Assembly (NCBI GenBank): GCA_035559815.1
Contig: DATMAT010000023.1
Span: 248,001-312,000 of the forward strand
Direction of reading: 5' to 3'
Length of the DNA stretch: 64,000 nt
From: Thermodesulfobacteriota bacterium
GTDB taxonomy: Bacteria; Desulfobacterota_D; UBA1144; Nemesobacterales; CSP1-2
Positions 3-9,260 of this stretch are shown here, in pieces (position 1 is the first letter of the stretch; every line of letters starts with the position of its first letter). Position numbers and translations under genes: made by a program. Below the pieces are notes generated by a model. It saw only the letters and a list, made by a program, of their open reading frames with translations, did no database searches and was not told the DNA's origin.

Positions 3-506
3 AGCACGAATAAAATCAAGAAGCGAAACCGGCTAATAACACCAGAATCAACTAAATTTCAGGAAAAAGATATTTCACTCGGAGGAGACCTGGGCCAGGG
101 TCTACTCTCTGCTTACAAGAGGTTCGTCGAGACCAAAGACCCATTAGCCGTCGAAGAGTATCTAAAAATGGCTGGTTCAGACAGAGAGATAATATTTGTG
201 GTAGAACTTTCCCGAACCGCCGAGGATGACGTCAGGATTCAATTCGGGAAATCCGTAGAATACGTAGTCTCATCGGTAAGAGAAATCGACCCGGCAGAGT
301 TTCCAGGGATAGCCGTCAGAATAGCGGATTTCTTGAAAACCGTAAATACTGTCCATAAGGGTCCTAAGATCCATCTCGTCTTATCCATGCCCGTCGTATT
401 GGCATTCCAAATCGGACAGTGGGTAGGTATTTCCCACTATGACATAGAGCCGTATCATTTTGAAAGGGGTAGATACTTAAGAATTCCCTCCATAAAAAGG
501 GGATAA
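3..506 (+). CDS. SAVED-domain protein, C-terminal part (5' end outside window)
   Basis: An open frame enters from the left edge and runs without a stop to the TAA at 504-506, so this is the last ~167 residues of a larger protein. The segment reading KIHLVLSMPVVLAFQIGQ, followed about 15 residues later by a His-Phe and an R-x-L-R-I end, is the signature of the SAVED domain (pattern H-L-F-L-x-x-P-x-x-L-A-x-x-L-G). An upstream IIFVVELSRT strand fits the second half of the same fold. SAVED domains bind cyclic oligonucleotides in CBASS effectors (Cap4 type) and in type III CRISPR ancillary effectors such as CalpL; the effector domain (nuclease, protease, TIR or other) would be N-terminal and is not visible. 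The gene lies 47 bp upstream of cas4-cas1 on the same strand, which suggests an ancillary effector of a CRISPR locus extending left. The family call rests on motif recognition only. Confidence 0.72.
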   Translation, partial: STNKIKKRNRLITPESTKFQEKDISLGGDLGQGLLSAYKRFVETKDPLAVEEYLKMAGSDREIIFVVELSRTAEDDVRIQFGKSVEYVVSSVREIDPAEFPGIAVRIADFLKTVNTVHKGPKIHLVLSMPVVLAFQIGQWVGISHYDIEPYHFERGRYLRIPSIKRG

Positions 507-553: not shown

Positions 554-2170
554 ATGTGGGACGAGCTTCTGCCTATATCTCTAGTTTCTGAAATTATTTT
601 CTGCCCCCGCAATTTTTACTACCGCGCCTGCGAAGGGGCAGAAGCAATAAACAAATTTGTGCTTGAAGGCACACTCCAGGATGAGAAAAGGAACGAGAGG
701 GAAAAAGTTAAAACTCGAGAAAAAATACAAATCAGGGAAGTGAGCCTTTCCTCTGAGACCTTAGGGATAATAGGGGTGCTCGATGCTGTCGAGGAAAAAG
801 GTAGTTTGTACCCGATAGAATACAAAAGAGGAGAATTAAAAGAGAGTTTACGGGACGACGTTCAACTTTGTCTCGAAGCAATGCTCTTAGAAGAGCAAAC
901 CGGGAAATCCATTCCCTATGGATACATCTACTACTCCGTTTCGAAAACTAGGAGAAGGGTCGACTTCACGGACGAACTAAGAAAAACCTCCCTGGAGACG
1001 ATAGCCAATGCGCGAGAGATTCTCTATAAGGGTGAAATCCCTGAACCGGTGGCCGATGAAAGATGCCCGGGATGTGCTCTATTTTCAATCTGTCTTCCCT
1101 TCGAAGTCAAGTCATTGAAGGAAAAAGAACCTTTGACCAAGCGCATTATCCCCGAACTTCACACGGGAAGGGTTCTTTACGTGGATGAACATGGAGCTTA
1201 CGTGGGAAAGAGAGGCGGGAAAATTATTGTTACGAAAGAGAAAGAGGTAATAGCAGAAATGCCTGCTTCTTATCTAAGCCAGCTTGTTCTTTTCTCAAAC
1301 GCCAATATCTCTACCCAAGCCATAAAATTCCTGCTGAGAATGAACGTGGAGATAATGTACCAATCCTCCTGGGGCAGGTTCGAAGGGAAATTCGTTCCAG
1401 AGGAGAACAAAAATTCGCTTCTCCGATTAGCACAATACAAATCACACCTAGATGAAGTCTTCGCTCTGAAGGTTTCAAAAGCCTTTGTCATGGGAAAGCT
1501 CTCCAACATGCGCACGCTTCTTCTTAGACAGAATAGAGAACTTTTGGATAGTGAAGTAGAAAAAGCATGCGTTGAAATCAAGAACGTAATAGATAGATTG
1601 GAAACGGTCGGAAGAAAAGATGAACTTTTAGGTTTTGAGGGAATAGCAACCAGGCAATATTTCGGTGTGTTTGGGAAGCTCATTAAACCAAAGGCGTTCG
1701 GCTTTGATTTTGAAAAAAGGACAAAGCGCCCGCCCCGCGACCCGGTGAATGCGCTTCTCAGTTTCGGATATAGTGTACTTGTCGGCGATATGGTTTCATC
1801 CTTGTCCACAGCCGGACTAGACCCCTATATCGGGTTTTTTCATTCTACAAAATACGGGCGCCCCGCGCTTGCGCTCGACCTTATGGAGGAGTTTCGCCCG
1901 GTGATAGTTGATTCCTTGGTGTTAACTTTGCTAAATAAGGGAATGGTTGCAGAGAAGGATTTCAAAGAGAAGTTCGGAGGAGTATTTTTCGAAGAAGATG
2001 GAAGGGAGGCATTTTTTAGGGCTTATGCAGGAAGAGTCCAAACCGAGATCGTGCATCCTGTGTTTGAATACCGGGTAAATTATCGAAGGGTCTTTGAAAT
2101 ACAAGCAAGGTTCCTGGCAAAGGTCCTGACCGGGGAGATTGACGAATATATGCCTTTTTTGGTGAGATAA
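554..2170 (+). CDS. cas1: Cas4-Cas1 fusion, CRISPR adaptation integrase
   Basis: The 538-residue protein joins a Cas4 nuclease (about 1-195) to Cas1 (about 204-538). The Cas4 part has the N-terminal FCPR cysteine (C17), the RecB-type residues D77 and E89-x-K91, and a C-terminal cysteine group C171-x2-C174-x5-C180 for an Fe-S cluster. The Cas1 part starts at TGRVLYV and has the metal site: E362 in GFEG, H430 in GFFHSTKYG, and an acidic residue in the DLMEEFRP motif near 442-446. Cas4 trims prespacers at the PAM side and Cas1 (with Cas2) inserts them at the leader end. Such fusions are known mainly from type I-G (formerly I-U) and some type I-B/III loci, so the fusion alone does not fix the subtype. 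cas2 starts 4 bp after the stop, implying one transcript. No clear Shine-Dalgarno precedes the ATG because a repeat arm sits there. Confidence 0.95.
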   Translation: MWDELLPISLVSEIIFCPRNFYYRACEGAEAINKFVLEGTLQDEKRNEREKVKTREKIQIREVSLSSETLGIIGVLDAVEEKGSLYPIEYKRGELKESLRDDVQLCLEAMLLEEQTGKSIPYGYIYYSVSKTRRRVDFTDELRKTSLETIANAREILYKGEIPEPVADERCPGCALFSICLPFEVKSLKEKEPLTKRIIPELHTGRVLYVDEHGAYVGKRGGKIIVTKEKEVIAEMPASYLSQLVLFSNANISTQAIKFLLRMNVEIMYQSSWGRFEGKFVPEENKNSLLRLAQYKSHLDEVFALKVSKAFVMGKLSNMRTLLLRQNRELLDSEVEKACVEIKNVIDRLETVGRKDELLGFEGIATRQYFGVFGKLIKPKAFGFDFEKRTKRPPRDPVNALLSFGYSVLVGDMVSSLSTAGLDPYIGFFHSTKYGRPALALDLMEEFRPVIVDSLVLTLLNKGMVAEKDFKEKFGGVFFEEDGREAFFRAYAGRVQTEIVHPVFEYRVNYRRVFEIQARFLAKVLTGEIDEYMPFLVR

Positions 2171-2174
2171 TAAA

Positions 2175-2453
2175 ATGAGAAGGCTAATTGTCGTATATGA
2201 CATATCAGATGACAAGAGAAGAATTAAGCTCTTTAAATCTCTTGAGGGTTATGGGATCCCGGTCCAGTTTAGTGTCTTCGAGTGCGAGCTAAGTGATCAG
2301 GACTTCCTTCTGATGAAAGATAAGGTGGAAAGAGTGATTGATAAAGACGAAGACACCGTTATCTATTACGAACTTTGCCCGAGGTGCTGGGATAGAACGG
2401 AGAGAGTGGGGATAAGAAAAAAGATTGTGCCCGATGAAGTGGTTGTGGTTTGA
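2175..2453 (+). CDS. cas2: Cas2
   Basis: A 92-residue ferredoxin-like protein of the usual Cas2 length. The first strand reads VVYDISDDKRR with the conserved Asp at position 9, followed by a LEGYGIPVQFSVFEC stretch typical of Cas2 dimers. Cas2 bridges two Cas1 dimers in the spacer-integration complex. It begins 4 bp after cas4-cas1 and is the last gene before the CRISPR leader. The C-terminal PRCWDR and EVVVV segments are ordinary for the family. Confidence 0.95.
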   Translation: MRRLIVVYDISDDKRRIKLFKSLEGYGIPVQFSVFECELSDQDFLLMKDKVERVIDKDEDTVIYYELCPRCWDRTERVGIRKKIVPDEVVVV

Positions 2454-2611
2454 AGAGCTTGACACCAGATTCAGATTTTTATAACATGGTGAAAAAGGCC
2501 AACTGGGGACACGTAGGTTCTTTGACAATTGAATAGAACTACAGTTTTTAGTGTTTATTCTTTAGTGTTTAGGGAGAATTAAGAATTAAAAACAAAAAAA
2601 CTAATATGAGC

Positions 2612-2640
2612 TTGACAAAGTTTTTGGATTTTAATAGGAT
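2612..2640 (+). promoter_or_regulatory. Candidate promoter for the CRISPR precursor
   Basis: TTGACA at 2612-2617, a 17-bp spacer, then TAGGAT at 2635-2640. The -35 is perfect and the spacing ideal; the -10 matches 4 of 6. It lies in the AT-rich leader and points into the array. Confidence 0.45.
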
Positions 2641-2789
2641 TGGGGTTAAGGACGCATCGTTACCTTAACGTTCTTTGACAATTGAATACTTTGCAAACAT
2701 GGGATTGGGAATGCAAACATATTATTGGTGGAGCTCTTATTCTTATCATGATTAACCTCCTTTATAGATTTAAATGAATGAAAAAAAAA

Positions 2790-2814
2790 CCTCTAACCCT
2801 ATAGGAATTGAAAC
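2790..2814 (+). repeat. Degenerate or foreign CRISPR repeat end
   Basis: The last 11 bases (GGAATTGAAAC) equal the array repeat, but the preceding part reads CTCTAACCCTATA instead of the array's CTAATTCCCGGAAG. It looks like the 3' half of a different CRISPR repeat or a decayed one. It sits 250 bp before the first perfect repeat. Confidence 0.5.
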
Positions 2815-3064
2815 CAAGCAGGCCAATATTTAGGATTCAGTTCTCAGGGATGAACCAAAATCGCAAACCTAGTATCAGGCACTACTTTTCGAGCGTCGAG
2901 GAAACACAAATAACGTGGGAGATGCTCGATGAGAAAATATTTAATGTTTCAGGGAAGTTAAAGAATATGGGCAAAAAGGGTCAATTGGATAAGTCCCATG
3001 CAAATGAGCATTCTCGCAAACTGCATTGTAATTCATTTAAAACATTCAGGGTTTCGAGGGTGCT

Positions 3065-5621
3065 GTGGAAAGACACTAATTCCCGGAAGGGAATTGAAAC
3101 GGGTGTAGGCGGATCTCGGTAAAATCCTGCTTCATCCGGTGGAAAGACACTAATTCCCGGAAGGGAATTGAAACCTGGGCGCGACGAGCCGTTACCCGTT
3201 CGCGGATGCCGCTGTGGAAAGACACTAATTCCCGGAAGGGAATTGAAACTAAAAATGGGCACTGGGGTTGTATATGCTGTTTATGCGTGGAAAGACACTA
3301 ATTCCCGGAAGGGAATTGAAACGGAAAGCCAAAAAAGCATACCAAGAGAAGATAGCTAAAGCAAGTGGAAAGACACTAATTCCCGGAAGGGAATTGAAAC
3401 ACTTTCACCATACTTTTTTTGTTTCTAGACATGGCATTTGTGGAAAGACACTAATTCCCGGAAGGGAATTGAAACGTAATTCCAAACTCTTCGTACTTTT
3501 GTCATGTTTGTTTTCGTGGAAAGACACTAATTCCCGGAAGGGAATTGAAACTGCTACTTCTTTTAGAAACCACCTTAAATTACTTACGTGGAAAGACACT
3601 AATTCCCGGAAGGGAATTGAAACCTTACAACCAAATCTTTTGCATAATTTCTGCAATAAAGTGGAAAGACACTAATTCCCGGAAGGGAATTGAAACATTC
3701 CATATACTTATCTGCTGACCAACCAGTTGCTTTAGTGGAAAGACACTAATTCCCGGAAGGGAATTGAAACACTAGCCACACCTTCCTGCCAAAACTAGGG
3801 TCAGTCTGTGGAAAGACACTAATTCCCGGAAGGGAATTGAAACATCATACTGGGCTGGTGTTAGCTTTTCTTGTGTATACCGTGGAAAGACACTAATTCC
3901 CGGAAGGGAATTGAAACGAAACTGAATCTTGATTGTATCAAGACTCTTTAGGTTTACGTGGAAAGACACTAATTCCCGGAAGGGAATTGAAACTTCTCGG
4001 CTAGTTGGGCTTGGAGCTTTTCTATCTGATGTGGAAAGACACTAATTCCCGGAAGGGAATTGAAACTTCATGATTGGAAGTCTACATTTGATTTTTCTAT
4101 TATGTGGAAAGACACTAATTCCCGGAAGGGAATTGAAACTTTAATTTTCTTTCTTGTTTATTCATTATACACCTCCGTGGAAAGACACTAATTCCCGGAA
4201 GGGAATTGAAACGTGGCAATATTGCGGCAATATTGCTTTTAGGACTTGGGTGGAAAGACACTAATTCCCGGAAGGGAATTGAAACTTTTTTTCTGCGTTC
4301 TCTAGTCTTTCTGTCGAATACGTGGAAAGACACTAATTCCCGGAAGGGAATTGAAACACGTTTAACCTTGCTGCCACCAAAGGTTGTTGCTGGACTCATG
4401 TGGAAAGACACTAATTCCCGGAAGGGAATTGAAACTTTCCATCTTAGGTTACCTCTCTTTGAAAAATGTCTTGTGGAAAGACACTAATTCCCGGAAGGGA
4501 ATTGAAACGTATTCCCGAACGTAAGTAAAAACTATCCATAATTTGTGGAAAGACACTAATTCCCGGAAGGGAATTGAAACATGAACCGGCAAATCTTCTC
4601 GGCCTTCTCCGGGTTCCAGTGGAAAGACACTAATTCCCGGAAGGGAATTGAAACTGACAAATTGTGTTTTGTCAGGGACAAGACACTTTTTGTGGAAAGA
4701 CACTAATTCCCGGAAGGGAATTGAAACGCTATCAATCATAGACAACGACCTTGATTTCGCTGAAGTGGAAAGACACTAATTCCCGGAAGGGAATTGAAAC
4801 ACCTTTAAAAAAGTCTCTCAGTGTTTTGAAATGCCTTGTGGAAAGACACTAATTCCCGGAAGGGAATTGAAACTTTTATTTTTTGCCACGGAAGGAAGGA
4901 AGACCTACATTTTGTGGAAAGACACTAATTCCCGGAAGGGAATTGAAACATCTTGACCATCGGTGAGTTGCTTCCATCTTCAAGATGGTGGAAAGACACT
5001 AATTCCCGGAAGGGAATTGAAACTGAATTGTGTCGTCATTGAATAGTGGATCATTGGCCATGTGGAAAGACACTAATTCCCGGAAGGGAATTGAAACTTA
5101 AGGTAGTTATCACGTTCCCGATGACTGGATAACCAGGTGGAAAGACACTAATTCCCGGAAGGGAATTGAAACCTAGAACACTTTATTAACCCGTTGTCCA
5201 TCAACCGATCATGTGGAAAGACACTAATTCCCGGAAGGGAATTGAAACAATAAAACACTGTTTGAGATGCTGCAGGACGAGGCTGTGGAAAGACACTAAT
5301 TCCCGGAAGGGAATTGAAACCTCAAGCAAAAATGACCGAACGTGAAACATTGATCGACGTGGAAAGACACTAATTCCCGGAAGGGAATTGAAACGGGGCA
5401 TATCTTCTTCGCTAAAAACTCGTCCTCGCTCATGTGGAAAGACACTAATTCCCGGAAGGGAATTGAAACAACCCAGGATTCAGTCATAAGGTCCACCTCG
5501 ATAAACCCAGTGGAAAGACACTAATTCCCGGAAGGGAATTGAAACATTAGTCTGTTGCAGTTGTCACAGTATTCACACTCTTCTAGTGGAAAGACACTAA
5601 TTCCCGGAAGGGAATTGAAAC
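3065..5621 (+). CRISPR. CRISPR array, 35 repeats and 34 spacers
   Basis: Thirty-five identical 36-bp repeats start at 3065, 3139, 3214, 3287, 3365, 3440 and so on to 5586. The repeat begins GTGGAAAGACACTAATTCCC and ends GGAAGGGAATTGAAAC. Its centre forms a 7-bp hairpin (AATTCCC / GGGAATT around a GGAA loop), and the last 8 bases ATTGAAAC would form the crRNA 5' tag, so transcription is rightward from the cas2 side. Spacers are 35-42 bp, mostly 37-40. I saw no duplicate spacers and no decay within the array, which suggests it is recent or maintained. No spacer was seen to match another part of this window. Many spacers, read as reverse complement, look like the sense strand of coding DNA. Confidence 0.98.
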
Positions 5622-6078
5622 TGAGCAAGGCTAGTGTTTAGGAGTTAGTAGTTAGTGATTAGGGGAATGATTGCGCAGCAGCATTGCTACAAACCGGCTA
5701 GGATTCAATGCCAATATGGCTCGAAGTTATTTCCTAATAACTAAACACCAAACACTAAACACTGCCTTTGGGGGATTGAAACCGAGCAAGGCTAGTGTTT
5801 AGGAGTTAGTAGTTAGTGATTAGGGGAATGAAGGCCCAGCAGCATTGCCACGAACTGGGTAGGATTCAATGCCAATATGGCTGGAAGTTATCTGCTAATA
5901 ACTAAACACTAAACACTGCCTTGGGGAATTGAAACCGAGCAAGGCTAGTGTTTAGGAGTTAGTAGTTAGTGATTAGGAGAATGAAGGCGCAGCAGCATAG
6001 CCACGAACTGGCTAGGATTCAATGCCAATATGGCTCGAAGTTATTTCCTAATAACTAAACACCAAACACTAAAAACCG
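5622..6078 (+). repeat. Three tandem ~155-bp elements capped by CRISPR repeat ends
   Basis: Copies at 5622-5782, 5783-5935 and 5936-6078 each start (C/T)GAGCAAGGCTAGTGTTTAGG, carry a left arm rich in TTAGTAGTTAGTGATTAGG, a ~75-bp centre, and a right arm TAACTAAACACCAAACACTA. The arms are imperfect inverted repeats, so each copy can fold as one long hairpin. Copies 1 and 2 end in GGGGATTGAAAC and GGGGAATTGAAAC, which are 3' ends of the CRISPR repeat. Each element thus sits where a spacer would be. No gene is seen. Confidence 0.85.
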
Positions 6079-6502
6079 TTTTCCAGGATTATAATTCCTT
6101 TATGAATGGGAAATTTGATTTTGAGGATCTAGAAATATACAAGAAATCCATTGATTTCATTAATCGTGTTTATAGAGTAACTAAGAGTTTTCCCAAGGAT
6201 GAGGTATTTGGTTTAACAAGTCAGTTTAGAAGAGCTGCTATATCCATAGCGCTCAACATAGCTGAGGGCTCTGGTAGAATTAAAAGATTAGAGAAGAGAA
6301 GATTTTATGAGATTGCAAGGGCTTCTGTATTTGAATGTATACCTATACTAGAGATATCAAAGTATCAGGGTTATATTGGTGAAGAGGATTGTAAGAAGTT
6401 GCGTGACATTTGTACGGAGCTAGGAAGGATGATAACCGGGCTTATGAAGTCCATCTCGGATAGAAAAAGTTTCTAATTCCCTAAACACCAAACACTAAAA
6501 AC
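6077..6502 (+). mobile_element. Candidate insertion carrying a four-helix-bundle gene
   Basis: A 22-bp direct repeat (starting CTAAACACCAAACACTAAAA) occurs at 6055-6076 and 6481-6502. At 9053-9074 the same flanks occur once with nothing between them, followed by the same TATAAACTGTTTCACGG that follows 6502. The 426-bp difference contains only the four-helix-bundle gene. This reads as an occupied and an empty site, although recombination between repeats could give the same picture. Confidence 0.5.
6102..6476 (+). CDS. Four-helix-bundle protein (23S rRNA IVS / S23 family)
   Basis: 124 residues from the ATG at 6102. An earlier in-frame ATG at 6030 lies inside the repeat element and would add a peptide encoded by the repeat arm. 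FEDLEIYKKS at the start, and QFRRAAISIALNIAEGSGR with its ANIAEG-type motif near residues 45-65, are diagnostic of the family first found in intervening sequences of bacterial 23S rRNA and related to the Avd accessory protein of diversity-generating retroelements. Molecular function is unknown; members form basic pentameric barrels. No reverse transcriptase or template/variable repeat pair is nearby. It lies in a possible insertion between copies of the inverted-repeat arm. Confidence 0.85.
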   Translation: MNGKFDFEDLEIYKKSIDFINRVYRVTKSFPKDEVFGLTSQFRRAAISIALNIAEGSGRIKRLEKRRFYEIARASVFECIPILEISKYQGYIGEEDCKKLRDICTELGRMITGLMKSISDRKSF

Positions 6503-6514
6503 TATAAACTGTTT

Positions 6515-6540
6515 CACGGACACTAATTCCCGGAAGGGAA
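6515..6540 (+). repeat. CRISPR repeat core fragment
   Basis: GGACACTAATTCCCGGAAGG and the following GAAT equal the middle of the 36-bp CRISPR repeat, without the first bases and without the TGAAAC end. It is joined directly to the GGGATAGG low-complexity block. An identical junction occurs at about 9089-9115. Confidence 0.7.
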
Positions 6541-8792: not shown

Positions 8793-8897
8793 CTGGCAGC
8801 CCTGAGGCTAAAGGAATGTGCTATTTTCAAAAACTTTCTAATCATCCTAGGAAATTACTACTCCTTATCTGTTGTCAAGGTAAACCTTCTACACATT

Positions 8898-9260
8898 GAA
8901 GAAAAACTTCTAATTCCCGCAGGGAATTGAAACCGAGCAAGGCTAGTGTTTAGGAGTTAGTGGTTAGTGATTAGGGGAATGAAGGCGCAGCAGCATTGCT
9001 ACAAACTGGCTAGGATTCAATGCCTATATGGCTCGAAGTTATTTCCTAATAACTAAACACCAAACACTAAAAACTATAAACTGTTTCACGGACACTAATT
9101 CCCGGAAGGGAATGGGTTAGGAATGTAGGGGATAAGGGATAGGGGATAGGGGATAAGTGAAAAAGACCAAACTAGTCCGTATTATCCCCAGTCCCTAATC
9201 CCTTGTCCCTTGTCCCATGTCCCTAGTTCCTAGTCCCTAATGTGTCTCTAATCCCTAATA
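8898..9260 (+). repeat. Degenerate CRISPR repeat plus fourth element copy and low-complexity block
   Basis: A 36-bp degenerate CRISPR repeat (8898-8933, ending CGCAGGGAATTGAAAC) is followed at once by another copy of the ~140-bp element (8934-9074). Then come a CRISPR repeat core (about 9089-9115) and the GGGATA/TCCCTA block to 9260. 8934-9260 is collinear with 5936-6695, except that the 426 bp holding the first four-helix gene are absent. The gap 8793-9315 holds nothing else recognisable. Confidence 0.85.

Follow-up and report, generated by a model that had tools for sequence, protein, structure and literature searches.

Spacers of a type III-B CRISPR array from a Thermodesulfobacteriota bacterium and their likely orientation towards invader mRNA

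Do the spacers of the CRISPR array described here direct crRNAs against messenger RNA, and are they drawn to the places where translation starts? Both had been proposed in a first-pass annotation. We examined the array within a window of 64,000 nucleotides taken from a 4.0-Mb genome assembly (contig C23:248001-312000). We consider it likely that the array serves type III-B (Cmr-Cas10) immunity and that, through selection, most of its spacers, about 87% but not all, are antisense to the mRNA of invaders. The features discussed below are collected in Table 1.

Table 1. Array, neighbouring genes and individual spacers, with positions in the window
Feature	Position	Strand	Description
SAVED-domain protein, C-terminal part	3..506	+	PF18145 above cut-off; PADLOC SAVED4
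Cas4-Cas1 fusion (Cas4g/Cas1g type; adaptation nuclease and integrase)	554..2170	+	NF049935, 611.6 bits (cut-off 560)
Cas2	2175..2453	+	TIGR01573, 61.1 bits (cut-off 24.5)
Presumed leader	2454..3064	+	Position between cas2 and first repeat
CRISPR array	3065..5621	+	35 identical 36-nt repeats GTGGAAAGACACTAATTCCCGGAAGGGAATTGAAAC, 34 spacers of 36-42 nt
Spacer 15	4140..4176	-	Reverse strand GGAGG, 6 nt, ATG AAT AAA (ATGAATAAA); best start-site case
Spacer 19	4436..4472	-	Reverse strand AGAGG, ATG close to end
Spacer 21	4581..4618	-	Reverse strand WNPEKAEKICRF, weakly trpA-like
Spacer 33	5470..5509	-	Reverse strand GAGGTGG, then ATG ACT

The type III-B locus and its array

The locus is a complete type III-B (Cmr) system in which no reverse transcriptase was detected. 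Before the cas4-cas1 gene and on the same strand, the locus (L010) carries cmr1, cas10/cmr2, cmr3, cmr4, cmr5 and cmr6, together with cas6 and genes for a ring-nuclease-like protein of the Cas_APE2256 type, a Csx1-like CARF-HEPN protein, a CARF protein of the NE0113 family and a SAVED protein, the gene of which spans L010:14928-15506 in full. Cmr1, Cmr3, Cmr4, Cmr5 and Cmr6, encoded consecutively in one operon on L010, each scored above their own cut-off. Cas10/Cmr2 matched TIGR02577 with 283.8 bits and carries the palm motif GGDD at residue 707, and Cas6 scored above the cut-off of TIGR01877 in the presence of a Cas6-type repeat.

Between cas6 and the CARF genes (L010:10912-12141) we found a MazE-like antitoxin, a toxin with a PIN domain and a nuclease of the Uma2 family (PADLOC PDC-S03). 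A protein of 143 amino acids without a family match is encoded directly 5' of the small SAVED gene (L010:14493-15506), within the type III-B locus, and the two may together form a cyclic-oligonucleotide effector of a kind not yet studied. The Cas4-Cas1 fusion passes a type I-G model yet serves a type III-B locus. Such type I-G fusions were reportedly described from Geobacter (Almendros, 2019, as cited in PMC9048733); the fusion found here is alike, as seen in its NF049935 match, whereas the effector is of type III-B and not of type I-G.

The repeat folds into a stable hairpin (-12.7 kcal/mol, z = -4.1), and its 3' end is ATTGAAAC. A repeat end of this type is the usual 8-nt 5' handle of crRNAs in Cas6 systems. 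Because of the hairpin and the handle end, we take the array to be transcribed on the + strand, a direction read from the repeat rather than from RNA. The presumed leader contains a decayed repeat end at 2804-2814, seen as a partial repeat match, and promoter-like matches in it were no more frequent than expected by chance.

Strand bias of the spacers

The crRNA strand of the III-B array is biased in base composition: 24 spacers were pyrimidine-rich, 6 purine-rich and 4 tied (sign-flip p = 0.0024). R-Y amounted to -0.121 per nt on this strand and thus to +0.121 on the opposite one. On the mRNA strand of four annotated phages the values ranged from +0.094 to +0.145, and purines outnumbered pyrimidines in 70-78% of its 38-nt windows. 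No bias was seen in the type I-B array that this genome also carries, where 33 of the 80 spacers were pyrimidine-rich and 41 purine-rich (-0.006 per nt); the difference between the two arrays was clear (Fisher p = 0.001).

A logistic strand classifier, trained on sense and antisense phage windows and 73-83% correct on a left-out phage, gave the III-B array a fraction antisense to mRNA of 0.87 (interval 0.69-0.98), a value estimated from composition rather than from mapped protospacers. Compared to a fraction of 0.5, twice the log-likelihood ratio of this fit was 13.2. For the 80 spacers of the I-B array the antisense fraction was 0.47 (0.33-0.61). A gradient of the bias along the III-B array was tested and was absent. 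Base composition can thus be used to estimate the orientation of spacers without known protospacers.

The first-pass annotation had held that the crRNAs of this array would pair with mRNA. As a tendency this was supported by the purine loading, by the I-B control and by the adjoining Cmr locus. The test is an indirect one, since no trusted protospacer turned up. The argument from which it had started, namely that the reverse complements of many spacers read as open coding sequence, fails: in the 34 spacers the antisense strand had 55 open frames out of 102 and the sense strand 54 out of 102, and with both strands equally open this feature is uninformative.

A different origin of the pyrimidine bias has to be considered, namely a sequence preference of Cas4-Cas1-Cas2 or a limit on crRNA composition rather than mRNA targeting. 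The signal is indeed mostly one of composition. A composition-free classifier gave p = 0.11 with a held-out accuracy of only 0.54-0.58, which is too little power to decide. With composition taken out the signal is weak, and the estimate of orientation draws nearly all its force from purine loading. Furthermore, T occupies spacer position 2 in 19 of the 34 spacers, as a preference during adaptation might produce. However, the bias is as large as the one seen on coding strands of phages, the start sites described below occur on the purine-rich strand only, and a bias towards mRNA is known in type III systems (PMC8482600). We therefore regard this origin as unlikely and retain mRNA targeting as the preferred reading.

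Spacers at translation starts

The second proposal was that several spacers cover translation starts. All spacer readings quoted in the annotation were correct: the reverse complements of spacers 13 and 34 read QIEKLQAQLAE and EECEYCDNC, spacer 29 holds a TGATG junction and spacers 18, 27 and 32 end in CAT, as does spacer 29. To count start sites we required a run of 4 or more nt from TAAGGAGGTGA located 3-13 nt before an ATG, with the frame open to the end of the spacer. Five spacers (9, 15, 19, 23 and 33) carried such a site on the antisense strand and none on the sense strand. Random mRNA-sense windows of the four phages scored 6.6-8.7% under the same rule, so that 2.2-3.0 sites would be expected in 34 antisense spacers against the 5 seen (P(>=5) = 0.08-0.18). 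The enrichment at start codons that had been proposed was therefore not established. Given the uncertainty of the phage null, the strand bias alone is enough to account for the start sites.

Could regions of translation start nevertheless be a specific source of the spacers, or a place where they are selected, so that the crRNAs cover ribosome-binding sites and start codons? Two observations speak in favor of this. With a stricter Shine-Dalgarno rule (at least 5 nt), 3 sites were seen where 0.45-1.28 were expected, and CAT terminates 4 of the 34 III-B spacers versus 0.68 per internal position. Across all type III arrays examined, terminal CAT was found in 7 of 87 spacers with 1.45 expected, whereas none of the 80 I-B spacers ended in it. 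The stricter count, however, has P = 0.01-0.14 depending on the phage taken as null, and the weaker rule does not reach significance. The CAT test was post hoc among 64 trinucleotides, with TTT tied at 4, and can only serve as a lead. The type III arrays of relatives did not show a clear excess either (4 antisense sites versus 2 sense), and no protospacer was found that would support a start site. A specific origin at start regions thus appears quite improbable. Even less credit can be given to the reading that the system prefers protospacers with the ATG as their very first bases and is enriched for ribosome-binding sites and start codons by more than the strand bias would give. A literature search on spacer enrichment at start codons returned nothing relevant; targeting of start codons would be new, but it is unsupported.

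Protospacers, known systems and related arrays

Matches of the array to phages and plasmids in blastn remained at chance level. Scans of viral contigs with exact or back-translated patterns of spacers 15, 32, 34, 27, 1, 18 and 29 gave no match, nor did a 25-mer of spacer 15 match any of these contigs exactly. A search of 57 genomes of the phylum scored only the top five candidates in each genome, so that weak protospacers could escape. It found no protospacer; what it did find were arrays of a related kind and, for spacer 21, a single weak match resembling trpA. In this match, to a relative, 29 of 38 nt agree, in frame and antisense, and it was rejected as a protospacer: its E-value of 0.00125 per genome is weak over 57 genomes. 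Spacer 21 was rejected as a self-target as well, matching the genome's own trpA at only 26 of 38 nt, with no other site within 3 mismatches in its own genome.

How could the orientation of the spacers come about? Cas4-Cas1-Cas2 would capture DNA fragments in either orientation. Cmr-Cas10 would be activated, for RNA cleavage and for cyclic-oligonucleotide signalling to the CARF and SAVED effectors, only by crRNAs that pair with a transcript. Hosts with a spacer in the right orientation would survive infection, and we propose that the strand bias is what selection leaves behind. A few spacers would cover start sites because, in gene-dense phage genomes, a few per cent of fragments sampled antisense to mRNA would include a ribosome-binding site and start codon. 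Of this scheme, the array, the locus and the strand bias in base composition are observed; how each single spacer is oriented, that selection is responsible and that phages are the source are inferred.

Two further explanations concern the bias as a whole. The sample of 34 spacers is small and the pattern had been picked by a pattern-seeking reader, so chance was considered; given p = 0.0024 on a test different from that reader's, and a negative control in the same genome, we find it very hard to hold chance responsible. Acquisition from RNA through a reverse transcriptase-Cas1 would yield transcript-derived spacers but is extremely improbable, since Cas1 is fused to Cas4 here, the scanned locus proteins contained no reverse transcriptase domain, and the Marinomonas RT-Cas1 itself yields just a moderate orientation bias (PMC5576922).

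Selection of functional spacers, the explanation that we prefer, has precedents, and the array is mostly an ordinary case: a further instance of the known type III strand bias, which the literature explains in this way. For type III crRNAs, an orientation antisense to the targeted RNA is stated to be a necessity (PMC5576922, Marinomonas, 2017). The coding strand is targeted by 65% of type III spacers on average, by 88% in the Moraxella III-B system and by 55% in type I-B (PMC8482600, Genome Biology 2021). The locus shares with the Moraxella system Cmr1-6 with Cas10, a Cas6-type repeat and a closely similar antisense fraction (an estimated 87% versus 88%). It differs in its adaptation module, a Cas4-Cas1 fusion, and in that its bias was estimated from composition rather than from mapped protospacers. 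In Thermus, a type III system that likewise lacks a reverse transcriptase acquires spacers from both strands when unselected, and a strong bias arises from the survival of cells with functional spacers (PMC7515739, 2020). The phage spacers of Thermus thermophilus end up antisense to transcripts; selection was shown experimentally there, whereas it is deduced here. Our data add an array without reverse transcriptase, of type III-B and with spacers that look antisense to mRNA, from a little-studied lineage. A biased III-B array and an unbiased I-B array in one genome also provide a contrast that bears on an idea already known, namely that the orientation of type III spacers is set by interference and not by acquisition.

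Kindred repeats were found in two relatives, HR37 and NC_groundwater_453; additional Cas1 loci of the relatives belong to other repeat families and were left out. The Cas10 proteins of HR37 fall below the Cmr2 cut-off, for which reason its system is probably another type III subtype; no Cas3 scored above the cut-off. Its arrays, with 47 spacers, gave an antisense fraction of 0.67 (0.47-0.84), a non-significant trend. NC_groundwater_453 contributed only 6 spacers.

The genome under study holds other arrays as well. Its type I-B locus comprises 81 repeats (G000:C22:16001-36000, L048), and a second, type I-B-like CRISPR locus (Cst2/DevR) lies at a contig end (G000:C63:1-8000, L049).

Within the window, a short interspersed repeat family occurs at 5589-6086 and 8889-9163, adjoining genes for four-helix-bundle (TIGR02436) proteins. 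Its members start with the CRISPR repeat end GGGAATTGAAAC, and the bases before this end at 8921 resemble a whole diverged repeat (AACTTCTAATTCCCGCAGGGAATTGAAAC). Exact 23-nt fragments of the repeat were detected outside the array at 6519 and 9091. In a relative, the array is likewise followed by a similar interspersed element (L014:484-557).
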